Source: Komagataeibacter nataicola
GTDB taxonomy: Bacteria; Pseudomonadota; Alphaproteobacteria; Acetobacterales; Acetobacteraceae
Assembly (NCBI RefSeq): GCF_003207795.1
Contig: NZ_NIRT01000006.1
Coordinates: forward strand, 1-64,000
Length of the DNA: 64,000 nucleotides
Reading direction: 5' to 3'
Positions 1-60,149 of this stretch are shown in pieces. Position 1 is the stretch's first letter. Each line of letters opens with the position of its first letter. The notes below the pieces were generated by a model that saw only the letters and a program-made list of their open reading frames with translations, did not search any database and was not told the DNA's origin. The position numbers and the translations under genes are program-made.

Positions 1-402
1 CCATCCAGAATGCCTCCTTCAGAGAATGGTCTGCATCCTATGAATCACATTTTTAAACCGATGGGTACCCCGTGAGTCAGGCCAAACAATGGTTGGTATA
101 AGACGCATAAGCGACCAGCATGGAGCCCTTAAAAAGGGTTTGAAAACAAATAATTGATAAAAAAGAAAAGTTTTTTGGATGTCGCCTTTTTCAAAAAGGC
201 AGTGCCTTCAAAAGCTTTTTGAAAAAATCTTTGCCAAAAACTTCTATAATTTCAGGGTTTGATTGGACCTGACTTTTCGGACAGGTGTTCATACAATGCT
301 TTCAAAAAGCAATCATAACAATATGTTTAAGTAAATATTATATATTGGCGTGCATCCTAAAAATTCCAAAACAATACAGTCCGGCTATACAAATTCAGGA
401 GC
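1..402. other. Left-edge intergenic region, no gene called
   Basis: Lower GC than the rest of the window. Two frames are open from the left edge (stops near 54 and 75), so the 3' end of an unseen gene cannot be excluded, but nothing is recognisable. A weak hairpin (ccctt/aaggg, about 128-141) and repeat copy 1 (166-250) lie here. Positions 47-75 resemble part of the origin-like region at 49671-49699 (see findings). The last 150 bases are AT-rich and presumably hold the promoter of the gene starting at 403. Confidence 0.5.
166..250 (+). repeat. Three-stem intergenic repeat, copy 1
   Basis: A diverged member of the repeat family. It opens with AAAAGTTTTTTGG, carries hairpin A (gcctttttcaaaaaggc), then a damaged hairpin B (aagctttttgaaaaaatctt), and closes with a CCAAAAACTT arm that can pair with the opening arm. 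It lies upstream of the Hint-domain gene; which gene it follows is outside the window. Confidence 0.75.
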
Positions 403-2792: not shown

Positions 2793-3094
2793 TACATTCA
2801 ATCTGATACCAACATAACCAAGCGCGTGTGTAAAAACAGATCATTGATAAGAACCGGAAAAGTTTTTGGGTGTCGTCTTTTTTCAAAAAGGCGACGTCTT
2901 CCGAAGCTTTTTGAAAAAAGCTTCACCAAAAACTTTTATAATTTCAGGGCGTTACCGGACCATTTTTTAAAGAATGTCTCCATTACAATACAGAAAAAGA
3001 GACGGCAAATAAAATTAAAACTCTACATATACTTACGTATAATACTTAAAAAACAATATATTCAATAAAACCTGTACTGTTTCCAATTTTCCAC
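2793..3094. other. AT-rich convergent intergenic region
   Basis: It separates the XRE gene (+) from the porin gene (-), so it holds two transcript ends. Repeat copy 2 occupies 2858-2940. The remainder (about 2950-3080) is very AT-rich for this chromosome, with no plausible coding frame and no further hairpin I can support. Confidence 0.6.
2858..2940 (+). repeat. Three-stem intergenic repeat, copy 2
   Basis: Near-complete copy: opening arm AAAAGTTTTTGGGTG, hairpin A (gtcg..cgac around a T-run/A-run), hairpin B (GAAGCTTTTTGAAAAAAGCTTC region, 10-bp stem), closing arm CACCAAAAACTTTT complementary to the opening arm. It lies between convergent genes. Confidence 0.9.
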
Positions 3095-5721: not shown

Positions 5722-6951
5722 TTGAGCGCAACAGACACACAGGCAGGCGCCAACAGCCTGCGCAGCGGGCCGGACGGGCGCGGCCGTTTCGGCATTTTTG
5801 GGGGCCGCTTCGTGGCCGAGACCCTGATGCCGCTCCTGCTGGAGCTGGACGCCGCCTATAAGGCCGCCCAGGCCGACCCCGAATTCCACCGCGAACTGGA
5901 TTATTACCTCAAGGATTACGTCGGCCGTCCCAGCCCGCTATGGCTTGCCCGCCGCATGACCGAGCAGCTCGGTGGCGCAAAGATCTACATGAAGCGCGAG
6001 GAGCTGAACCACACCGGCTCCCACAAGCTCAACAATGTCATGGGCCAGATCCTGCTCGCCCGCCGCATGGGCCGCACGCGCATCGTGGCCGAGACGGGCG
6101 CGGGCCAGCACGGCGTTGCCACCGCCACCGTGTGCGCGCTGTTCGGCATGAAATGCGCCATCTACATGGGCGCCACCGATGTCGAACGCCAGAAGCCCAA
6201 CGTATTCCGCATGCGGCTGCTCGGCGCGGAAGTGGTTCCCGTCACGGCCGGTGCCGGCACGCTGAAGGATGCCATGAACGAGGCCATGCGCGACTGGGTG
6301 ACCAACGTGCATGACACCTACTTTCTGGTCGGCACCGTGGCGGGCCCCCACCCCTACCCGCAGATGGTGCGTGACTTCCAGTCCATCATCGGGGTGGAAA
6401 CAAAAGAGCAGATCCTGGCGGCCGAGGGCCGCCTGCCCGACGCCATCGTGGCCGCCATCGGTGGCGGGTCGAACGCGATGGGCATTTTCCACCCCTTCCT
6501 CGATGACCCCGAGGTGAAGCTGATCGGCGTCGAGGCGGCAGGCTGCGGGCTGGACAGCGGGCGCACCGCCGCCTCCATCGAACGGGGCAAACCGGGCGTG
6601 CTGCACGGCAACCGCACCTACCTTTTGCAGGATGATGACGGGCAGATCACCGAAGCGCATTCCATCAGCGCGGGCCTCGACTACCCCGGCGTCGGCCCCG
6701 AGCATTCATGGCTCAGCGATATTGGCCGCGCGGAATATGTGGGTGCGACCGACCAGGAGGCGCTCGACGCCTTCCAGCTCTGCACCCGCACCGAGGGCAT
6801 CATCCCCGCGCTGGAAAGTGCCCACGCCATCGCCTATGCCGCCAGGATCGCGCCCGCCATGGGCAGGGACCAGATCATCGTGATCAACATTTCCGGCAGG
6901 GGAGACAAGGACATCTTCACCGTTGCCGAACATCTGGGAGTGAAACTGTGA
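5722..6951 (+). CDS. trpB: Tryptophan synthase beta chain
   Basis: It joins indole to serine in the last step of tryptophan synthesis. I chose the TTG at 5722 because GGAG lies 8 bases upstream and the resulting 409 residues fit the family; an in-frame ATG at 5674 is the alternative. The PLP lysine is Lys102 in [20 protein letters not shown] (PLP phosphate site), the ETGAGQHG substrate loop and SGRGDKD near the C-terminus are all present. Usually trpF precedes trpB in this operon order, but here a divergent CorA-like gene does, so trpF must lie elsewhere. The trpA start overlaps the stop by 4 bases. Confidence 0.97.
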
Positions 6952-7784
6952 GCCGCATCGCCCGCCGCTTCGCCACCCTGCGCGCGCAGGGCCGTGGCGC
7001 CCTCATCCCCTATGTCGAGGCCTGCGACCCCGATTACGACACCTCGCTCGCCACCCTGCGCGGCATGCCTGCCGCAGGCGCCGACCTGATCGAGGTTGGC
7101 GTGCCCTTCTCGGACCCGTCAGCCGATGGCCCGACCATCCAGAAGGCCGCCCTGCGCGGGCTGAAGGGCGGCTCGACCATGAAGCGCGTGCTGGAGATGG
7201 TGCGGGCTTTCCGTGAAGGCGATAACGAGACGCCGATCATCCTGATGGGCTACACCAACCCCATCGAGGCCTACGGGCCGGAACGCTTCTGCACGGATGC
7301 AAAAGCCGCGGGCGTGGACGGGCTGATCGTGGTCGACATGCCACCGGAGGAAGCCGACCTGCTGGCAGGCCCGGCAGCGGCCAGCGGGCTGGACATCATT
7401 CGCCTTGTCGCCCCCACCACGCCTGACGCGCGCCTGCCCGTCGTGTTCAGTGGCGCGTCGGGCTTTGTGTATTACGTCAGCATCACGGGCGTTACCGGCA
7501 CGCGCACCGCCAGCACCGATGAACTGGCCGCAGCCCTGCCGCGCCTGCGCCGCGCCACCGACCTGCCGATCGCCATCGGCTTTGGCATCCGCACGCCCGC
7601 GCTTGCGGCCAGCGCCGTGCGCGTGGCTGATGCCGCGGTAGTGGCCTCGGCCCTGCTCAACACGCTTGAGGGCACGCTTGATGCGGATGGCAAAGCCACG
7701 CCCCGCACCGTGCCCGACGTGCTGGCGCAACTGCGCGGCCTGGCCGATGCCGTGCATGCCGTGGACAAAACCGACTCAAAATAA
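6948..7784 (+). CDS. trpA: Tryptophan synthase alpha chain
   Basis: It cleaves indole-3-glycerol phosphate to indole, which is channelled to TrpB. 278 residues from a GTG that overlaps the trpB stop, indicating translational coupling. The (beta/alpha)8 barrel signatures are clear: [19 protein letters not shown] carries the catalytic Glu and Asp; [11 protein letters not shown] and [12 protein letters not shown] form the phosphate-binding region. Repeat copy 3 begins about 14 bases after the stop. Confidence 0.97.
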
Positions 7785-7797
7785 TCCATTGATAAAA

Positions 7798-7887
7798 AAC
7801 GGAAGTTTCCGGGCGTCGCCTTTTTTCAAAAAGGGCGGCGTTCTTCTGAAGCTTTTTGAAAAAAGCTTCACCAAAAAACCTTTTATG
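7798..7887 (+). repeat. Three-stem intergenic repeat, copy 3
   Basis: Complete copy directly after trpA, in the orientation hairpin A (gtcgcc..ggcggc) then hairpin B (GAAGCTTTTTG..AAGCTTC) then closing arm CACCAAAAAACC. It separates trpA from accD by about 200 bases and probably ends or processes the trp transcript. Confidence 0.9.
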
Positions 7888-10211: not shown

Positions 10212-10220
10212 AAACAGATA

Positions 10221-10298
10221 AACGTTTTTGGTGAAGCCTTTTCCAGAAAGCTTCAGAAGAAGCCGCCTTTTTGAAAAAAGGGGCACCCAAAAACCTTT
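10221..10298 (-). repeat. Three-stem intergenic repeat, copy 4
   Basis: Reverse orientation: on the plus strand hairpin B (imperfect GAAGCC..AGCTTC) comes first, then hairpin A (gccgcc..ggggc), closing with CACCCAAAAACC. It sits between the convergent folC and sugar transporter stops. Read from the minus strand it immediately follows the transporter gene in the common A-then-B order. Confidence 0.85.
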
Positions 10299-10303
10299 AC
10301 TTT

Positions 10304-13063: not shown

Positions 13064-13140
13064 GGCGTTGGCTCCATTCTGTTGCATTGCCATGCATGCA
13101 CCAGAAGGCTGGATTTTTTCTTAATGTAGAAGACGTATAA

Positions 13141-13207
13141 AAAATTTCTGATAAAGCTTTTTCAAAAATCTTCAGAAAAAACAGCGTCTTTTTTTAAAAA
13201 AGCGGCA
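13141..13207 (-). repeat. Three-stem intergenic repeat, copy 5 (degenerate)
   Basis: A decayed, reverse-oriented copy: hairpin B remnant aaagctttttcaaaaatcttc, then hairpin A remnant gcgtcttttttt..aaaaaagcggc. The complementary outer arms are largely lost. On the minus strand it directly follows the flavin reductase stop. Confidence 0.65.
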
Positions 13208-13702
13208 CTATTCGCCCGGCGCATGGGGCAGCATGTGGTAGCTGCGGTTGAAATAGACCAGCCCGCCACGGGGGCTGGAATTGCGCAGGCTTTCCACCGC
13301 GCCGAACATGACGCTGTGGGTACCCACTTCCACAATCCGCTCAATGCGGCAGTCAAGCGACAGCACGGCCTCGTTCAGCACGGGCGCACCGGTGGTCAGC
13401 GTATCCCAATGGCCGGAACGGAAGCGCTCGGCCTGCTCGAGCGGGCTTGCGAACACGCCCGATATGTCCTGCTGGTCAGCGGCAAGTACGTTGATGCACA
13501 TGGCCGCATCCACCCGGAAGCGGTCGCGCACGCGGGAGTTGCGGTTGAGGCAGACCAGGACCGTGGGCGGCGTATCGGTAACCGAACACACGGCGGACGC
13601 GGTAAAACCCGCCGGGTCTTCCAGTGTTCCCGTCGTGACAACATTTACGGCCGCGCCAAGGCGGGCCATGGCGTTGCGAAAGGTGAGGGCGTCAATCCCC
13701 AT
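13208..13702 (-). CDS. Flavin reductase domain protein (HpaC/RutF type)
   Basis: 164 residues from ATG 13702 (CGAGG about 10 bases upstream; the frame stays open to 13810). The family pattern is intact: FRNAMARLGAAVNVVTT, PAGFTASAVCSVTDTPPTVLVCLN, INVLAADQQDIS, VFGAVESLR-like end and YFNRSYHML. Such proteins use NAD(P)H to reduce free FMN or FAD for a partner monooxygenase; none is encoded nearby. It is divergent from the hydrolase at 13828 across 125 bases. Confidence 0.88.
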   Translation of the reverse strand: MGIDALTFRNAMARLGAAVNVVTTGTLEDPAGFTASAVCSVTDTPPTVLVCLNRNSRVRDRFRVDAAMCINVLAADQQDISGVFASPLEQAERFRSGHWDTLTTGAPVLNEAVLSLDCRIERIVEVGTHSVMFGAVESLRNSSPRGGLVYFNRSYHMLPHAPGE

Positions 13703-16412: not shown

Positions 16413-17891
16413 ATGAACACCCAGTCCCCCCCAACCCAGACCACGCAGCAGCCCACCGAACCGCTACCCGATCTGTCGCAGATCGAGATTTCCCCCAACG
16501 CGCGCAAGACCCTGTGGCTCGCAGCCATCGTGGCCGCAATCTGTGGCGGCCTCTATGGTTACGATACCGGCATCGTATCGGGCGCGCTTTTGCTCATTAC
16601 CAAGGACTTCCACCTCAGCAGCTTCCTGCAGGAGATGGTGGCCTCCGCCATCCTCGCGGGCGCGGTGCTGGGCTCGCTGCTCACCGGCTGGCTGTCGGAA
16701 CATTATGGCCGACGCAAATCGGTCATGATCGTAACGGCGGTGTTCGTGCTCGGCGCGCTGGCCTGCGCCTTCTCGCCTGATGTGTATACGCTGATCGCGG
16801 CGCGCGTGTTCCTCGGGCTGGCGGTGGGTGGCTCCACCCAGGTGGTGCCGATGTACATCTCGGAGCTTGCCCCCGCGCACAAGCGCGGCCACATGGTCAC
16901 GATGTTCAACATCGCCATCGGCATCGGCATCTTTGCCGCCAACATCATAGGCTTCGCCGCGCGTGATGCGTGGGGCTGGCGGCCGATGGTGGCCATTGCG
17001 GCCATTCCGGCGGCAGGCGTGTTCATCTCCATGTTCTTCCTGCCCAAGAGCCCGCGCTGGGCGGCCGAGCATGAAAGCCTGGATTCCGCCCTTGAGCAGC
17101 TCCAGCGCATCCGCACCTCCGAGCGCGAGATCCGTCGCGAGATGCGCCGCATCCACGCCAATGCCAATGAGGAAACCGACCCGCGCGATGTCGGCTGGCG
17201 CGGCATCCGCCAGCCCTGGGTGCGCCCCGCACTCATCGCCGCCCTTGGCGTTGCCTTCTTCACGCAGGCAGGCGGGCTGGAGATGATGATCTATTACGCG
17301 CCGACCTTCCTGTCGGATGCGGGGTTTGGCAGTTCATCGGCGCTGATGGCCAGCATCGGCATTTCCATCATCTACCTGGTCATGACCGTGCTGGGCTCGA
17401 ACATTGTTGACCGCATCGGCCGCCGCCGCCTTGTGCTGGTCATGGGGCCGGGCAGCGTGCTGAGTCTGATCGGGCTGGGCATCATGTTCATTGCCCACCC
17501 GCAGCCGGGCAGCATGGGCAGCTGGCTGATCATTGTGTTCATGCTGCTGTTCATGGTGTTCAACGCCGGTGGCATTCAGGTGGTGGGCTGGCTGCTCGGC
17601 GCCGAGATGTTCCCGCTTTCCATGCGCGGCAACGCCACCAGCCTGCATTCCGCCATGCTGTGGGGCAGTGACCTGCTTGTCACCAGCACGGCGCTTACGC
17701 TGGTCACCAAGATCACGCTGGGGGGAACCATGTGGTTCTATGCCGGGGTGAACCTGCTTTCGGTGCTGTTCGTGTATTTCATGGTGCCCGAAACGCGCGG
17801 CGCATCGCTCGAGGATATCGAGGAAGCCCTGCGCGAAGGCCGCTTCCGCCCCACGCGCGGCAACACCGCGATCGTGGAAGAAGAAGAATAA
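16413..17891 (+). CDS. MFS sugar porter (sugar:H+ symporter)
   Basis: 492 residues with 12 predicted helices after a 30-residue polar N-terminus. Motifs: YGYDTGIVSGALLLI (helix 1), GWLSEHYGRRKSVM, GGSTQVVPMYISELAP, PKSPRWAAEHE before the central loop, EMMIYYAPTF in helix 7 and VPETRGASLEDIEE. Similar in class to the transporter at 10304-11719 but clearly divergent in sequence, so the two probably take different sugars. AAGGAAAGG lies about 10 bases before the ATG. Repeat copy 6 starts at its stop codon. Confidence 0.92.
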   Translation: MNTQSPPTQTTQQPTEPLPDLSQIEISPNARKTLWLAAIVAAICGGLYGYDTGIVSGALLLITKDFHLSSFLQEMVASAILAGAVLGSLLTGWLSEHYGRRKSVMIVTAVFVLGALACAFSPDVYTLIAARVFLGLAVGGSTQVVPMYISELAPAHKRGHMVTMFNIAIGIGIFAANIIGFAARDAWGWRPMVAIAAIPAAGVFISMFFLPKSPRWAAEHESLDSALEQLQRIRTSEREIRREMRRIHANANEETDPRDVGWRGIRQPWVRPALIAALGVAFFTQAGGLEMMIYYAPTFLSDAGFGSSSALMASIGISIIYLVMTVLGSNIVDRIGRRRLVLVMGPGSVLSLIGLGIMFIAHPQPGSMGSWLIIVFMLLFMVFNAGGIQVVGWLLGAEMFPLSMRGNATSLHSAMLWGSDLLVTSTALTLVTKITLGGTMWFYAGVNLLSVLFVYFMVPETRGASLEDIEEALREGRFRPTRGNTAIVEEEE

Positions 17892-17937
17892 AAGTTTCTG
17901 GGTGCCGCCCTTTTTGAAAAAGGCGGCATTCTTTTTT
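17890..17937 (+). repeat. Three-stem intergenic repeat, copy 6 (half element)
   Basis: Only the opening arm AAAAGTTTCTGGGTG and hairpin A (gccgcc..ggcggc) remain, followed by a T-run; hairpin B and the closing arm are missing. It fills the whole gap between two convergent stops and, with stem plus T-run, could serve alone as a terminator for the transporter gene. Confidence 0.85.
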
Positions 17938-22323: not shown

Positions 22324-22469
22324 CTATCCGAAAATCCTGCTCCTGCTGCCGTAATAGCCGGGCCATACGGCATGATTACCCTGATGGAACGCAACAGGGG
22401 CCGCCACGACCGGCTTTTGCAAGCGGTCAGGGCAGGCCCCCGAAAGGCCCCGGCCCGTATAGAGGCCGG

Positions 22470-22550
22470 GAAGTTTCTGGTGAAGCTTTTTTCAGGAAGC
22501 TTCAAGGACTGCCGCTTTCCCGAAAAAAGGCGGCACCCAAAAACTTTTAT
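22470..22550 (-). repeat. Three-stem intergenic repeat, copy 7
   Basis: Full reverse-oriented copy between metK and trmB: plus-strand order is opening arm GAAGTTTCTGGTG, hairpin B (GAAGC..GCTTC), hairpin A (gccgc..ggcggc), then CACCCAAAAACTTTT. On the minus strand it follows metK by 17 bases in the common A-then-B order. Confidence 0.9.
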
Positions 22551-22567: not shown

Positions 22568-23755
22568 TTAGCGGTTGAACGCGCCACGCAGGGCATCGAC
22601 CAGGTCGGTCTGCTCCCAGGTGAAATCGTCCTTCGCCGCATCCGGCGTACGACCGAAATGGCCATAGGCGGAGGTCTGGGTGTAGATGGGGCGGTTGAGG
22701 CGCAGGTGCTTGCGGATGCCGCGCGGGCTGAGGTCCATGACCTCGCGCAGGACGCGGCCGAGCTTCGCCTCGTCAATGTCCTTGCCCGTGCCATCAAGGT
22801 CCACATAGACCGAAAGCGGGTGAGACACGCCAATAGCGTAGGAGATCTGCAGCGTGCAGCGATCGGCAAGGCCTGCGGCAACGACATTCTTGGCCAGGTA
22901 GCGGCAGGCATAGGCTGCCGAGCGGTCCACCTTCGTGGGGTCCTTGCCCGAGAACGCGCCACCACCATGCGGGGCCGCGCCACCATAGGTGTCGACAATG
23001 ATCTTGCGCCCGGTCAGGCCGCAATCGCCATCGGGGCCGCCGATCACGAACACGCCGGTCGGGTTGACGTAGAATTCGTCTTCCGGCGGCATCCAGCCCT
23101 CGGGCAGCACGTCACGCACGATGCTGCCGAGTTCGTCGCGGATGGTGGCCTGGCTGGCGCCTTCCACGTGCTGGGTCGAGATCACGACCGAAGTGGCGCC
23201 CACGGGCTTGCCATCGACATAGCGCAGCGTGACCTGGCTCTTGGCATCGGGCTGCAGGGCCGCGGCGCGCGGATCGCCCGCCTTGCGCAGGTCGCGCACG
23301 CGGTGAAGGATGTCATGCGCGTAGAACAGCGGCGCGGGCATGAGGCTTTCGGTCTCGCGCGTGGCGAAGCCGAACATGATGCCCTGGTCGCCTGCGCCTT
23401 CGTCCTTCTCGCCCGCGCTGTCAACGCCCACGGCGATGTCGGCGGACTGGGCATGCAGGTAGTATTCCACCTCGGCATTGCGCCACGAGAAGCCGGCCTG
23501 GTCGTAGCCGATATCCTTCACCGCGTCGCGCGCGCCCTGAATCAGCAGGTCAGGCGTTACGGAAGCCGGACCACGTACTTCACCGGCAAGGATGATGCGG
23601 TTGGTGGTGACCATCGTTTCACACGCAACGCGGGATTCACCGTCTGCTGTCAGGAACGCATCAAGAACGGTATCACTGATCCGGTCAGCGACCTTGTCGG
23701 GATGCCCTTCGGATACTGATTCCGATGTAAACAGAAAATCGCCTTTATTGCGCAT
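22568..23755 (-). CDS. metK: S-adenosylmethionine synthetase
   Basis: It condenses methionine and ATP to SAM. 395 residues from ATG 23755 (the frame stays open to 23974, but [21 protein letters not shown] is the normal N-terminus). Motifs [18 protein letters not shown] and the P-loop-like [16 protein letters not shown] are intact. I looked for a SAM-II or SAM/SAH riboswitch in the 190 bases upstream and saw none I could support. Repeat copies flank the gene on both sides. Confidence 0.97.
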
Positions 23756-23947
23756 GATGGTCCTGTCTGCCTCGTATGGAGTAGAATAACGCCTGCGAAA
23801 CCGGGCGTACGATCGCATGCGTTTGGCCGAAACCCGCCCAAGCGTCAAGCCATTTCCCCGAATAGCACCCTCCCGCACGGCCTGCGGCGCGCGGATGGTC
23901 AGGGCGCTATCTGAAAAACCGGTCACACAAACATTGTCTGAACATGG

Positions 23948-24028
23948 AAAAGTTTTTGCTGAAGCTTTTTTCAAAAAGCTTCAAAAGACGCCGCTTTTTC
24001 GAAAAAAGGCGACACTTGAAAACTTTTA
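23948..24028 (-). repeat. Three-stem intergenic repeat, copy 8
   Basis: Full reverse-oriented copy in the dapB-metK gap: AAAAGTTTTTGCTG arm, hairpin B (GAAGCTTTTTTCAAAAAGCTTC region), hairpin A (gccgc..ggcgac), closing CTTGAAAACTTTT. On the minus strand it follows the dapB stop by about 25 bases. Confidence 0.9.
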
Positions 24029-24052
24029 TTGTTTTTTATCAATGGTTTGATT

Positions 24053-24841
24053 TTAGTCGCGCGGCAGGCCCAGCACATCTTCCATGTCATAAAGCCCTGC
24101 CTTGTGCCCGCGCAGCCAGTGCGCGGCCCGCACTGCGCCCGTGGCGTACACCCTGCGGTCAAAGGAGCGGTGGGTCAGGCTGATCTGTTCATGGCTGGAG
24201 GTGAAAATGACCGAATGCTCACCCACGATCTGCCCGCCGCGCAGGGCAGCGAAACCGATCGCGCCATCGGCGCGCGGGCCGGTATGGCCATCACGCCCGC
24301 TTTCAATATGATCTTCAAGCCTGATGCCCCGCCCGTCGGCCACGGCGCGGCCCATGGCCAGGGCAGTACCCGATGGAGCATCCACTTTCTGCCGATGATG
24401 CATTTCAAGGATCTCGGCATCATACTCGCTGCCGGGCAGCACGGCGGCCATCTGGCGTGCAAGGCGGGTCACCAGCGTTACGCCGGGCGAGAAATTGGCC
24501 GCCTGCACCACGGCAATGCGGGTCGCGGCCTGATCGACCGCCTGCTGCTCGGCACCTGACAGGCCGGTCGTGCCCAGCACCCAGGCCGTGCCTGCCGTTG
24601 CCAGGGCCCGGGCATGCGCCGCCACCGTGCTGACATGGGTGAAGTCGATCACCACATCGCACTGCGCAGCCAGATCGGCGATATCGGCATGAACGGGGCA
24701 GTCGATCCCGTCAACACGACGGCCATCGCGCGTCGTGCCACCGGCCAGCACGGCCCCTGCCGCTGGCACTTCCTGCGCCAGAAGGCGACCGACACGGCCA
24801 TTGAGGCCCGCAATACCGATCCGCAGGGGCTGCGCGTTCAT
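24053..24841 (-). CDS. dapB: 4-hydroxy-tetrahydrodipicolinate reductase
   Basis: It reduces hydroxy-tetrahydrodipicolinate in lysine and diaminopimelate synthesis. 262 residues from ATG 24841 with GGAG 8 bases upstream. The cofactor site GIAGLNGRVGRLL, VIDFTHVS, LGTTGLSG, the catalytic EMHHRQKVDAPSGTAL and the C-terminal FDRRVYATGAVRAAHWL match the family. It lies downstream of dnaJ, separated by a strong stem-loop. Confidence 0.95.
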   Translation of the reverse strand: MNAQPLRIGIAGLNGRVGRLLAQEVPAAGAVLAGGTTRDGRRVDGIDCPVHADIADLAAQCDVVIDFTHVSTVAAHARALATAGTAWVLGTTGLSGAEQQAVDQAATRIAVVQAANFSPGVTLVTRLARQMAAVLPGSEYDAEILEMHHRQKVDAPSGTALAMGRAVADGRGIRLEDHIESGRDGHTGPRADGAIGFAALRGGQIVGEHSVIFTSSHEQISLTHRSFDRRVYATGAVRAAHWLRGHKAGLYDMEDVLGLPRD

Positions 24842-44774: not shown

Positions 44775-44888
44775 CGGTATTCCTCCCTTAATGCAGGGGT
44801 TCCTGCCACGGGCGGGAACCGGCTTTAGCGTAATGGAGACGCCCTGTTCGCCACCAGCGGTAAAAGCGCCGGTCTCCCGCGCAATGAT

Positions 44889-44970
44889 AAAAGTTTTCGG
44901 GTGCCGCCTTTTGTCAAAAAGGCAGCGTTCTTCGAAGCTTTTTGAAAAAAGCTTCACCAAAACCTTCTTT
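44889..44970 (+). repeat. Three-stem intergenic repeat, copy 9
   Basis: Full plus-oriented copy: AAAAGTTTTCGGGTG, hairpin A (gcc..ggc, one arm changed), hairpin B (GAAGCTTTTTGAAAAAAGCTTC region), CACCAAAACC. It lies 11 bases from the stop of the membrane protein gene at 44982, which reads towards it in the less common orientation. Confidence 0.9.
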
Positions 44971-44981
44971 TGGCAGAAGGC

Positions 44982-45617
44982 TTACAGATCCTGCTCGACC
45001 TCATGGGCCACGTGATGCCGCCCATCAGGCGCAAGGCCACCGGGCAGGGGCCGCGCGGTCTCGACGGACTGCATCCGTGCCCACAGCATCGGCATGGCCA
45101 CGACATAGTCACAACCCAGCATGACCACATTGCACACCATGGCGCAGGATACGGTCATAAGCAGCCTGTGCCTTGCGGATATGAGATAGGCGGTGGTCAC
45201 GCACAGGATTTCCAGCCATTCGATGCCAAACAGGAGGGCGCTGCCATACCCCCACTGCCAGTAGGCCCACGCCCCCTGCAGGCTGAGGGTCACCAGCACG
45301 AACACCCCGGTCCTGTGCAGCGGCCGAAGCCGGGATAGATGCCCAATGAACCAGTAAGGCACGCTCATGCACACGGTATCGTCCAGAATATTGTGTCCCA
45401 GTGCATAGATGATCTGCCTGCGCAGCACGGATGCCATAAACATTACAACCGCCAGCGGGCCTGACAGGTTTTGCAGGATCTGCTGTCCCTGCGGACTGCG
45501 CAGGTCGTCGAGTATGCTGCTGTCGGGTTCAAACAGCCACTCCACCACCCCGAGCAGAACGCCCATAAGGCCGATGAGCAGGCAGGAATATTTTGGCGGC
45601 AGGGACATGCGGTTCAT
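44982..45617 (-). CDS. Hypothetical integral membrane protein
   Basis: 211 residues with about five predicted membrane helices: LLIGLMGVLLGVVEWLF, LAVVMFMASVL, TGVFVLVTLSLQGAWAYW, LLFGIEWLEILCVTTAYLIS and LMTVSCAMVCNVVMLGCDYV. The C-terminal tail (ARPLPGGLAPDGRHHVAHEVEQ) is polar. No family recognised and no motif suggesting a substrate. Alone on the minus strand between two intergenic spacers. Confidence 0.7.
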   Translation of the reverse strand: MNRMSLPPKYSCLLIGLMGVLLGVVEWLFEPDSSILDDLRSPQGQQILQNLSGPLAVVMFMASVLRRQIIYALGHNILDDTVCMSVPYWFIGHLSRLRPLHRTGVFVLVTLSLQGAWAYWQWGYGSALLFGIEWLEILCVTTAYLISARHRLLMTVSCAMVCNVVMLGCDYVVAMPMLWARMQSVETARPLPGGLAPDGRHHVAHEVEQDL

Positions 45618-48293: not shown

Positions 48294-48616
48294 TTGGTTG
48301 AATGCTGCATCATGGCCGTGCTCGCTATCCGGTCGGGTTATTTCATCACTTTGAAATGCAGTTTTAACGCAGCATCGGTTACGAACCGATTAAGGGCATA
48401 TTTTGAAATAACCATTTGATAAGAAATAAATATTTTTGGATTCTGCTTTTTTTGAAAAGGCAGCGTCATCTGAAACTGTCTGAAAAAAGCATCACCGAAA
48501 CCTTTTTCATGATTTCAGGACATAAGATCCGGACGCACAAAGCCCTCATGCAGCACATGAAGGCGTTGACGACATCATCAATAATTTAAAGTGTGGGGGT
48601 ACCAGATTAAGGAATC
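48294..48616. other. Intergenic region between the RmlC-like gene and tRNA-Ala
   Basis: It contains repeat copy 10 (48428-48510) and otherwise AT-rich sequence. I see no coding frame of substance and no further hairpin with a T-run. It should hold the promoter of the leftward RmlC-like gene and the 3' end of the tRNA transcript. Confidence 0.55.
48428..48510 (+). repeat. Three-stem intergenic repeat, copy 10 (diverged)
   Basis: Plus-oriented but eroded: ATATTTTTGGATTC opening arm, hairpin A (ctgcttttttt..aaaaggcag), hairpin B disrupted (tgaaactgtctgaaaaaagcatca), closing CACCGAAACC. It lies 3' of tRNA-Ala(GGC). Confidence 0.75.
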
Positions 48617-48692
48617 TGGTGGAGCCAAGGGGAGTCGAACCCCTGACCTCCTGAATGCCATTCAGGCGCTCTCCCAACTGAGCTATGGCCCC
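48617..48692 (-). tRNA. tRNA-Ala (anticodon GGC)
   Basis: A 76-nt cloverleaf on the minus strand. Acceptor GGGGCCA pairs with TGGCTCC, with A73 and an encoded CCA. The anticodon stem CCTGA/TCAGG encloses ATGGCAT, giving GGC. The T arm holds GGTTCGACTCC. It reads GCC and GCU alanine codons. Confidence 0.97.
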
Positions 48693-57784: not shown

Positions 57785-59153
57785 CTCCGCGCCCTGCCTG
57801 CCCTTGGCCTGGCGGGATGTGGATGACGTGCTGGCCGCGTGGGGCGACCAACCGGGGTTTGTCTGTCTTGACAGCGGCGGTCCGGTCGGCCCGCGTGCGC
57901 GCTGGACCATCATCTGCCGCGACCCTGCACATTGGATCGAGCAGCGTGATGGCATGTGCTGGCTGGATGGCACGCAGGTGGCGCATGACCTGCCCGGCCT
58001 GCTGCGCCAGTGCGTGCCAGGTGGGTGCTGCCCGCCCGAGGTGCCGTTTGCCGGAGGCGCGATCGGCTTTATCGGCTATGGCGCGGGTCAGCGTATGGAA
58101 GGCATCGGCACGCGCCATGGGGCAGGAGATGATGGCCCCGAGGCCGCTTTCGGCCTGTATGACCATGCCTTCGTGCTCGATCGCAAGACAGGTCGCGCCT
58201 GGCTGGCGGGAACAGACCTTGATGCTCCGCATATGATGGCACTGGCAGCGCAGTGGGCGGCGATGGCTCCGGCGGCAAAACCCCCGCCCCTGCCCGCGTT
58301 GCGTTTCCGGCCCGATCAGGACGGGGCGGCGTATCGCGCCGCCGTGGCGCAGACCGTGGCCCGGATTGCGGCGGGCGAAGTATTTCAGGTCAACATCACC
58401 GGGCGCATGCGGGCCACCCGTCCGCCCGGGCTTTCGGCGGTTGATGTGTACCGCACGCTGCGCGCCACATCGCCCGCGCCATTCGGGGCCTTTATGGTGG
58501 GTGAGGGCGGGTTTGCGCTGCTCGGCGCCTCGCCCGAGCGTTTTTTACGCCTTGATGGCGCAGGCCGGGTCAGCACCCGGCCCATAAAGGGCACCGCCCC
58601 GCGCGGCGGCACGGCGCAGGACGACGCCCGGCTGGCCCATGCCCTGCGCCATGATGCGAAGGAGCGGGCCGAGAACCTGATGATCGTTGACCTCATGCGC
58701 AACGATATCGGGCGCGTGGCACAGATGGGCAGCATTGCCGTGCCAGAACTTTTTGCGGTCGAGCAATTCGCGCATGTGCATCATCTGGTCTCCGAAATAA
58801 CGGGGCGGCTGGCACCGGAGCACGATGCCTGTGACCTGCTGGCAGCCACCCTGCCACCCGGCTCGGTCACCGGCGCGCCCAAGCACCGCGCCATGCAGGT
58901 GATCGATGCGCTCGAGGCCTCGCCCCGTGGGGCCTATTGCGGCGCCGTGGTCAGGATTGGCAGCGATGGCACCATGGATAGCGCCGTCATCATCCGCACG
59001 CTGGTCCTCACGCGTGACCACGTTACAGCAGCGGCAGGGGGCGGCATTACCGTGGAGTCCGACCCGGAGCGTGAATACCGCGAGATGCAGCTTAAAATCG
59101 CGGCTCTGCTGGCCCTGTTCGGGCCGCAGGTGGATGAAGGAAACATGCCATGA
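57777..59153 (+). CDS. pabB: Aminodeoxychorismate synthase component I
   Basis: It makes 4-amino-4-deoxychorismate for folate synthesis. 458 residues from ATG 57777. The C-terminal chorismate-binding domain is typical: IAAGEVFQVNITGRM, GASPERFLRL, RPIKGTAPRGG, AENLMIVDLMRNDIGRVAQMGS, LPPGSVTGAPKHRAMQVID and GITVESDPEREYREMQLK. The PabA amidotransferase is not in the window. The start is buried in the end of ptsI and pabC overlaps its stop by 4 bases. Confidence 0.94.
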   Translation: MASSAPCLPLAWRDVDDVLAAWGDQPGFVCLDSGGPVGPRARWTIICRDPAHWIEQRDGMCWLDGTQVAHDLPGLLRQCVPGGCCPPEVPFAGGAIGFIGYGAGQRMEGIGTRHGAGDDGPEAAFGLYDHAFVLDRKTGRAWLAGTDLDAPHMMALAAQWAAMAPAAKPPPLPALRFRPDQDGAAYRAAVAQTVARIAAGEVFQVNITGRMRATRPPGLSAVDVYRTLRATSPAPFGAFMVGEGGFALLGASPERFLRLDGAGRVSTRPIKGTAPRGGTAQDDARLAHALRHDAKERAENLMIVDLMRNDIGRVAQMGSIAVPELFAVEQFAHVHHLVSEITGRLAPEHDACDLLAATLPPGSVTGAPKHRAMQVIDALEASPRGAYCGAVVRIGSDGTMDSAVIIRTLVLTRDHVTAAAGGGITVESDPEREYREMQLKIAALLALFGPQVDEGNMP

Positions 59154-59959
59154 CCCCTACAGGCCTGCCCGTATGGCTCAATGGCCAGGTTCTCAGTCCG
59201 GCCGAGGCCCGCATCGACCCGGCGGATAGGGGGCTGCTGCTGGGTGATGGCCTGTTCGAGACCATGCGCGTGGCCGATGGTGCGGTCCGGCATTTCACGC
59301 TTCATATGGAGCGGCTGGCCCACGGCGCTGGCGTGCTCATGCTCCCCCCACCCGATACGGACAGGATCGCGCAGGCGGTGCATGACCTGCTGGCCGCCTC
59401 CGGGCTGCAGAGCGGTTCGCTGCGGCTTACGCTCACCCGTGGTCCCGGCCCGCGCGGGCTGCTGCCCCCGCCTCGGGTCCAGCCCACCCTGCTGCTTGCT
59501 GCTGCCGCCAGCCTGCCGCCCGCAACCCCCGTGCGGCTGGTCACTGCCACCCACCGGCGCGATGAGGAGAGCGTGCTCTCGCGCATCAAGAGTCTGAACT
59601 ACCTGCCCTCCATCCTCGCGCGGATGGAGGCTGCGAGCCTGGGTGCGGATGATGCGCTGCTGCTCAACCGGGCGGGGCATGTGGCCGAGACGAGTGCCAG
59701 CACGCTCGTGGCGGTTATTGGCGGGGAGCTGCTTACCCCCCCTGTGAGCGATGGCGCCTTGCCCGGCATTGCCCGTGGCGTGCTGCTGGCGGCGGGGCTG
59801 CTGCGCGAAGGTCGCCTTACCCCCGCCATGCTGCGCGGAGCCGACGCGGTTTTTGCCCTCAACAGCCTGTGCGCGCGTGAAGTGGTGGCGATTGACGGCC
59901 ATGAACTGCCACGCCAGCCTGCCTGTCTGGCGCGGCTGGTGACGTATCTCGATGGCTGA
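59150..59959 (+). CDS. pabC: Aminodeoxychorismate lyase / class IV aminotransferase
   Basis: It releases pyruvate to give p-aminobenzoate. 269 residues. The PLP lysine lies in SRIKSLNYLPSILARMEA, with LLLGDGLFETMRV near the N-terminus and ETSASTLVAV, GALPGIARGVLL as further fold type IV motifs. Branched-chain aminotransferase activity cannot be excluded, but coupling to pabB supports the lyase. Repeat copy 11 follows the stop. Confidence 0.88.
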   Translation: MTPTGLPVWLNGQVLSPAEARIDPADRGLLLGDGLFETMRVADGAVRHFTLHMERLAHGAGVLMLPPPDTDRIAQAVHDLLAASGLQSGSLRLTLTRGPGPRGLLPPPRVQPTLLLAAAASLPPATPVRLVTATHRRDEESVLSRIKSLNYLPSILARMEAASLGADDALLLNRAGHVAETSASTLVAVIGGELLTPPVSDGALPGIARGVLLAAGLLREGRLTPAMLRGADAVFALNSLCAREVVAIDGHELPRQPACLARLVTYLDG

Positions 59960-59988
59960 TTTTTCACCTGCTTTTCATAAAAAATGAC

Positions 59989-60070
59989 AAAAGTTTCCGG
60001 GTGCCGCCGTGTTGAAAAAAAGGCGGCATTTTTCACGAAGCTTTTTGAAAAAAGCTTCACCAAAAACTTT
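59989..60070 (+). repeat. Three-stem intergenic repeat, copy 11
   Basis: Full plus-oriented copy after pabC: AAAAGTTTCCGGGTG, hairpin A (GCCGCC..GGCGGC), hairpin B (GAAGCTTTTTGAAAAAAGCTTC region), CACCAAAAACTTT. It lies 29 bases after the stop and 140 before purH. Confidence 0.92.
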
Positions 60071-60149
60071 CTGATGTTTCACAGGCAGGCTTTTCAAACC
60101 GCGCCGGGGGAGCCAGCCATGGCATTTCGCTTATTGCCCATTCTGGCGC

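Follow-up and report, generated by a model that had tools for sequence, protein, structure and literature searches.

Immediately behind the tryptophan synthase alpha gene of Komagataeibacter nataicola (6948-7784), 14 nt past its stop codon, lies a palindromic sequence (7799..7885, + strand) of a kind that recurs around it, which raises the question of what such a repeat is, how it came to be dispersed and whether it serves the genes that it follows. The DNA analysed here, referred to as the window, is the stretch C84:1-64000 (64,000 nt) of the K. nataicola genome G000 (3.67 Mb, 105 contigs), for which a preliminary description had listed 11 copies of such an element. The arm AAAAGTTTTTGG, with up to one mismatch and on both strands, is matched 11 times in the window, compared with 0.08 times expected from shuffled sequences, and R1, a covariance model built from a 16-copy seed, recognises full three-stem elements (84 nt) at nine of the 11 places listed. 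The repeat family is therefore real, although only nine of its listed members are complete, the copy at 13141 being decayed and that at 17890 a half copy. The seed comprised nine of the 11 window copies and seven from elsewhere in the K. nataicola genome, 13141 and 17890 being left out; the nine and the seven match R1 by construction, because they are part of its seed, and the remaining matches in this genome are outside the seed. The nine full copies score 64-100 bits, against 27 bits for 13138(-) and about 26 bits for 17888.

The consensus reads ATAAAAGTTTTTGG, GT, GCCGCCTTTTT-TC-AAAAAGGCGGC, GTTCTTC, TGAAGCTTTTT-GA-AAAAAGCTTCA, CCAAAAACTTTTAT, and is laid out as two inverted half units, each consisting of an arm and a hairpin. 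Hairpin A (11 bp, loop TC) and hairpin B (11 bp, loop GA) are separated by a 7-nt linker; their heads are mutually reverse complementary, and the outer arms are complementary across 13-14 bp. The constant parts are the outer arms AAAAGTTTTTGG/CCAAAAACTTTT and the heads, i.e., a T-run, C or G, and an A-run. Among 68 copies, the A-side flank is A-rich (up to 72% A) and the B-side flank T-rich (up to 65% T), a bias that spans about 8 bases, beyond which the flanks are near random.

The first full element of the window (165..247, +, R1 72.6 bits), whose neighbour to the left falls outside the contig, is bordered at 121-164 and 249-298 by arm remnants of a larger MITE carrier (see below), and the element at 2856..2939 (+, 99.9 bits) stands between convergent genes, with remnants of the carrier at 2815-2854 and 2941-2986. 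The A-side arm of the carrier exceeds the null at 7799..7885 (79.4 bits), at 23946..24029 (-, 90.8 bits; 23 nt past the stop of minus-strand gene 24053-24841) and at 48426..48508 (+, 63.7 bits); the gene 3' end nearest to the last of these is that of a minus-strand tRNA (48620-48692), 111 nt off. The full element at 10218..10300 (-, 86.4 bits) fills a convergent gap, with stop codons 6 nt and 3 nt off, and those at 22467..22550 (-, 80.7 bits), 44887..44970 (+, 95.4 bits) and 59987..60073 (+, 75.8 bits) lie 17, 11 and 27 nt past the stops of minus-strand gene 22568-23755, minus-strand gene 44982-45617 and an aminotransferase class IV gene (59150-59959), respectively. The decayed copy (13138..13215, -, 27.1 bits) overlaps the called 3' end of minus-strand gene 13208-13702; the half element (17888..17937, +, 25.6 bits), made up of one arm and hairpin A and flanked by convergent genes, shares bases with the stop codon called for gene 16413-17891.

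The family is present in the window, yet the window holds a small part of it only: the K. nataicola genome contains at least 150 R1 matches (the best 150 of 1742 candidates scored, all 150 of which pass), a few with a length of just about 57-62 nt. In a sample of the family, scanned with filters that lose weak matches, R1 matches 43/249 genomes and 21/102 genera at E 0.001. R2, a model made from 92 matches on both strands at 46 loci, matches 77/395 genomes and 18/84 genera of the order at E 0.0001; among the R2 rows listed, all 19 own-genus genomes match, 298 non-matching genomes being outside that list. Long matches of a K. rhaeticus contig are 81-85% identical in own-genus genomes, compared with mostly 71-77% (82-85% in one stretch) in the neighbouring genus g73. 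In a class-wide scan, 1/385 genomes matched, namely K. nataicola's own, and with 11 candidates scored per genome this is weak evidence for absence outside. When the genome collection was scanned with an exact pattern, 116 stretches were returned, 80 of them listed; the matches listed belong to Acetobacteraceae and Rhodospirillales bins, Komagataeibacter, Acidocella and an Asaia bin, and a Ruminococcus bin, also among the matches listed, was judged a chance match. Plasmid matches come from Komagataeibacter and Novacetimonas, and phage records gave no match to the element. Rfam found only two tRNAs in the 64-kb window, and on six element loci every Rfam match was below gathering score. The elements are carried by acetic acid bacteria and by some of their relatives. 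A bin titled Acidobacteria (CAJCIS01; L148, L158, L189) also bears Acetobacteraceae-type elements; this title is probably wrong, one contig corresponding to a contig of the Acetobacteraceae genome G080.

In other genera, the same arms and heads accompany different stems (GTTC, CTTC, GGGAG, GCCGCC, GTGGGGGC, etc.). Covariation was measured on elements defined by their arms alone (176 non-redundant) and on hairpins defined by their T-run/A-run heads alone (329), definitions chosen to lessen circularity. Around the 329 heads, the five flanking stem cells are 87% paired versus 60% after the right sides are shuffled, in a set many of whose loci were first found via the structure model R1. Perfect stems number 151, versus 42 in shuffled sets (maximum 59 in 300 shuffles), and stem positions 2 to 4 show all four Watson-Crick pairs. 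Genome G187, some stretches of which were picked for holding matches, has 28/30 perfect heads and uses 10 different stem words. Since the stems differ from copy to copy and from genus to genus, it is shape rather than letters that is conserved. The number of hairpins also varies: G187 elements of 129-137 nt have, in most cases, a third GC-rich hairpin in their minimum-energy folds. By the same type of fold, a 188-nt version, likewise of G187 (L281:6936-7123), places four hairpins in the same arms and adjoins both called convergent stop codons. The idea that A and B must differ, so as to avoid one long palindrome, was dropped because of copies with equal A and B stems, e.g., L258 and L190.

Orthologous copies also support the covariation of stems, for which the preliminary description had proposed a search. 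In 15 orthologous groups from three species (K. nataicola, G222 and G135; long matches are about 92% identical), stems A and B show 0.13 and 0.10 differences per site, compared with 0.25 in loops and linker; the arms show 0.18. Both members of a pair are changed in 36/1046 cells versus 20.1 expected, a count that 0/2000 permutations reach, in cells that are non-independent, coming from three species, and under an alignment fitted to the model and so favouring stems. Thirteen of the 36 double-changed cells are paired in both orthologues, against 141 stem cells in which pairing is gained or lost, so that many copies must be decaying. Orthologous sites often differ by a deletion, a half copy or a reversed element. 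At 2856 and 89727 of contig C84, for instance, the element has the opposite orientation in the orthologous gap of G222:C57, as if inverted or independently inserted.

Placement relative to genes, called by a home-made dicodon method, was determined in K. nataicola for 60 copies (40 on 442 kb and 20 on other contigs), from which 165 was dropped, its left neighbour being off the contig. The remaining 59 comprise 32 convergent, 26 tandem and no divergent copies, plus one called inside a gene whose start codon is doubtful (146057); of 145 background gaps measuring 100 nt or more, 91 are tandem, 35 divergent and 19 convergent. That copies lie just 3' of genes, as initially described, holds well in this genus, where 53/59 have a called stop codon no more than 30 nt away. 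Among the tandem copies, 25/26 are closer to the upstream stop than to the next start, the exception being 48426, behind a tRNA gene, and copies still adjoin the stop in tandem gaps with at least 340 nt to the next start (147243, L014). The A-then-B orientation relative to the gene, also part of the initial picture, finds weak support (18 A-B vs 8 B-A among the 26 tandem copies with both neighbours known).

Elsewhere the picture is mixed. Loci picked by score (n=39, from 22 genomes in 12 other genera) are divided into 27 tandem, 11 convergent and one divergent; the 14 arm-defined elements of G187 into nine convergent, five tandem and no divergent, compared with 48/186 divergent among its background gaps of at least 70 nt; and the 20 of G020 into 14 tandem, two convergent, two divergent and two at ends. 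Copies chosen by pattern in other genera (n=81) comprise 42 tandem, 17 convergent, 15 divergent, five at ends and two inside genes, and since 15/81 divergent stands against a background of 61/219, the bias to gene ends is weak there. Copies unrelated to transcript ends, which would speak against a role at such ends, are in part found in those genera, and a universal gene-end bias was dropped: Komagataeibacter shows a strong bias, some other genera a weak one. Independent annotation places four plasmid copies outside the listed genes, in records whose gene table is incomplete: three are convergent, and one is 45 nt behind an IS630 transposase gene.

Whether the element ends transcripts was approached with a simple hairpin plus U-tract criterion, which 15/47 element-bearing gene ends pass unmasked, compared with 39/167 element-free ends and 16/266 in a coding control. 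With the element masked, 3/47 pass, which would make other terminators look strongly depleted at element-bearing ends; this candidate effect was given up, as it is not significant when the element is spliced out and ends are length-matched (4/46 vs 26/166, p=0.34; 5/46 vs 36/166, p=0.14; 7/46 vs 38/166, p=0.31). Neither hairpin of the consensus stands directly before a long U-tract. Flank complementarity, for its part, is an ambiguous sign of insertion into older terminators, because convergent stop codons alone can yield it. As the length-matched difference is not significant, termination is inferred from shape, tails and place, by which the elements probably mark transcript ends. On this basis we lean, by a modest degree, towards a gene-end structure that would probably act as a two-way terminator or mRNA-end stabiliser.

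The element itself is a dispersed palindrome of Acetobacteraceae that usually sits right behind stop codons in Komagataeibacter and has two hairpins (in one genus sometimes three or four) of variable stems between constant arms; one Komagataeibacter form moves inside a 162-nt MITE, whose insertion duplicates 3 bp, mostly TNA. A broader reading, which we rate well short of an even chance, is that of a family-wide gene-end device. What is inherited would be a shape, namely a closed junction of several hairpins, and stems would be swapped module by module, each hairpin intact, with two, three or four hairpins to an element. The device would serve in both directions as a terminator or mRNA-end cap, transposons that take it up as cargo would disperse it, and those copies that reach stop codons would be retained as transcript ends of the host.

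One form of the element is clearly mobile in Komagataeibacter, namely the 162-nt MITE that carries it, with ends GAGACTGTTTGAAAA...TTTTCAAACAGTCTC around the core. Its terminal inverted repeats (GAGACTGTTTGAAAA at both ends) are a perfect 15 bp, and no gene lies inside. Its transposase may, as our guess, be of the IS5 family, and the carrier would belong to the IS5-type MITEs by its likeness to IS5/IS1031. The set comprises 25 full-length copies, 21 of them from genome G713, where the 21 listed copies are 91-96% identical. Identical 3-bp flanks border 20/25 carriers, and 19 of these flanks are TNA, L320 and L268 being one event. In L320 (K. nataicola), the carrier lies between TTA on both sides, and in 9/9 relatives read (L333-L341, flanks 95-100% identical) the empty site is a single, uninterrupted TTA; L332 (G135) shares the L320 insertion. 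A carrier on a Novacetimonas hansenii plasmid was taken as the same event because the identity extends over 168 nt and one flank is shared. Among the 25 carriers, 11 are convergent, nine tandem and five near stretch ends and hence unplaceable, with none divergent or inside called genes; a called stop codon is at most 1 nt away in 8/25 and at most 30 nt away in 11/25, and several carriers are hundreds of nt from one. The TNA target often coincides with or adjoins a called stop codon (L320:1663, L344, L346, L357, L106:4559, L269:1466); a 3-bp duplication at such targets would preserve the stop. The element has thus probably spread in part inside a small transposon. The MITE-type mobility suggested in the preliminary description stands for the 162-nt form, by empty site and duplication. 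Core-only copies gave no clean empty site in G060, G184, G135 or against K. rhaeticus, and the direct-repeat excess at their flanks is no greater than many tests give by chance.

These features could also belong to a purely selfish repeat, comprising the MITE and whatever derives from it, that does nothing for the host; its excess at gene ends would arise from purging from promoters and coding sequence and from a TNA target that covers TAA and TGA. We regard this as possible, though doubtful. It accords with a MITE form that has both target duplication and empty site, with the carriers at stop codons and their absence from divergent gaps and genes, with orthologous sites that show deletions, half copies and inverted copies, and with the common divergent placement in other genera. 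The cores themselves fit it less well. Of 33 full K. nataicola cores, 10 keep the A-side carrier arm above null, four the B-side arm and 23 have no A-side arm, four of these arm-less cores being 90-94% identical to the carrier's core. The view that all cores are decayed MITEs was therefore dropped, and with A-side arms in 10/33 and arm-less cores so close to the carrier's, the core-only copies are treated as a separate state. Also against a selfish repeat are the slower change of orthologous stems relative to loops, with their excess of double changes, and the copies that adjoin a stop even where at least 340 nt separate it from the next start.

A signal acting at the level of DNA would be another explanation: AT-rich palindromes could bind a nucleoid protein or gyrase or serve DNA uptake, and their position at gene ends would then be incidental. 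We consider it improbable. The near-perfect symmetry of the element, its T-run/A-run heads conserved on both strands and its low GC content (0.33-0.46 in the nine full window copies, within a window of 63.6% GC) would suit such a signal, whereas stem letters that vary and yet stay complementary are unlike a sequence-specific site; a protein that binds cruciforms would still be compatible with them. Least plausible, to the point of being rejected, is the view of the repeat as a REP/REPIN that a RAYT (Y1 transposase) has spread, the machinery for which the preliminary description had proposed a search: half copies occur, the two inverted half units resemble a REPIN, and the eight genomes with a Y1_Tnp match among 63 tested are all element-positive (0/20 element-negative genomes match), but a search that was positive in 5/14 control genomes, E. 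coli included, found no Y1_Tnp in the K. nataicola genome nor in 35/43 element-positive genomes, including 5/5 own-genus genomes tested.

The element described here has partial counterparts among known repeats. REP, BIME and REPIN sequences are intergenic palindromic repeats with inverted half units and a mosaic composition. The present element shares these traits and differs from them in its complementary outer arms, in the freedom of its stem sequence and in the lack of Y1_Tnp from most carriers. No description of such repeats in Acetobacteraceae was found in the literature searched. Lichenicola cladoniae is presumably a member of this family. For this species, 1,369 REPs were counted with RepRanger, with no motif given in the relevant section (PMC12306157); that count may already include such elements, unlabelled. 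Closest in behaviour, from the part of its description consulted, is SPRITE, an interspersed repeat that is small and AT-rich, ends in AAAA/TTTT and is over-represented in convergent gaps and near gene 3' ends; it was proposed to be a co-opted terminator, and its target site duplication could not be established (PMC3049150). The likeness lies in the convergent and 3'-end placement and in the missing duplication, as in the core-only copies. SPRITE is described there as a single 18-bp duplex with a U-rich tract, found in pneumococcus and near kin, unlike the present element, with two to four hairpins closed by an arm stem and stems that vary but stay paired, in many Acetobacteraceae genera. MITEs have been reviewed (PMC10969869). 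IS5-type MITEs would be a counterpart of the 162-nt carrier, with its perfect 15-bp terminal repeats, mostly TNA 3-bp duplications and absence of a gene; the difference is that most K. nataicola cores are without carrier arms and that a subset of the cores of one bin (bin_299) is in another, larger repeat. Lastly, the DUS/USS terminators of Neisseria and Pasteurellaceae likewise consist of repeated inverted sequences that form hairpins at gene ends, but are, in the part of the source consulted, uptake words of only about 9-11 nt with a high degree of conservation (PMC1852404), whereas the stem letters of the present element are free and the element is not known to serve uptake.

If the elements do end transcripts, a transposon-borne structure would provide acetic acid bacteria with ready-made gene ends that work in both directions, and its insertions could rewire operon boundaries. 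Some relatives of K. nataicola are industrial producers of cellulose and vinegar. In addition, structure evolves apart from sequence within one genome, which makes selection on shape directly measurable, and the covariance model can be used by annotators for at least 150 features in the K. nataicola genome and many in its relatives.

Two further observations concern carriers. In JAATGE01 bin_299, a subset of cores (L126, L132, L150, L173, L197, L202, etc.) is found within the larger repeat mentioned above, whose ends, like GGGCAATCGCATTTGAAAA ... TTCCAAATGCGATTCCC, are quite unlike those of the 162-nt MITE; it appears to be a second, unrelated carrier. In G135, a further insertion of about 1.44 kb (G135:C2:37725-39165) lies beside a carrier end, apparently with an 11-base duplication, as read from match coordinates.
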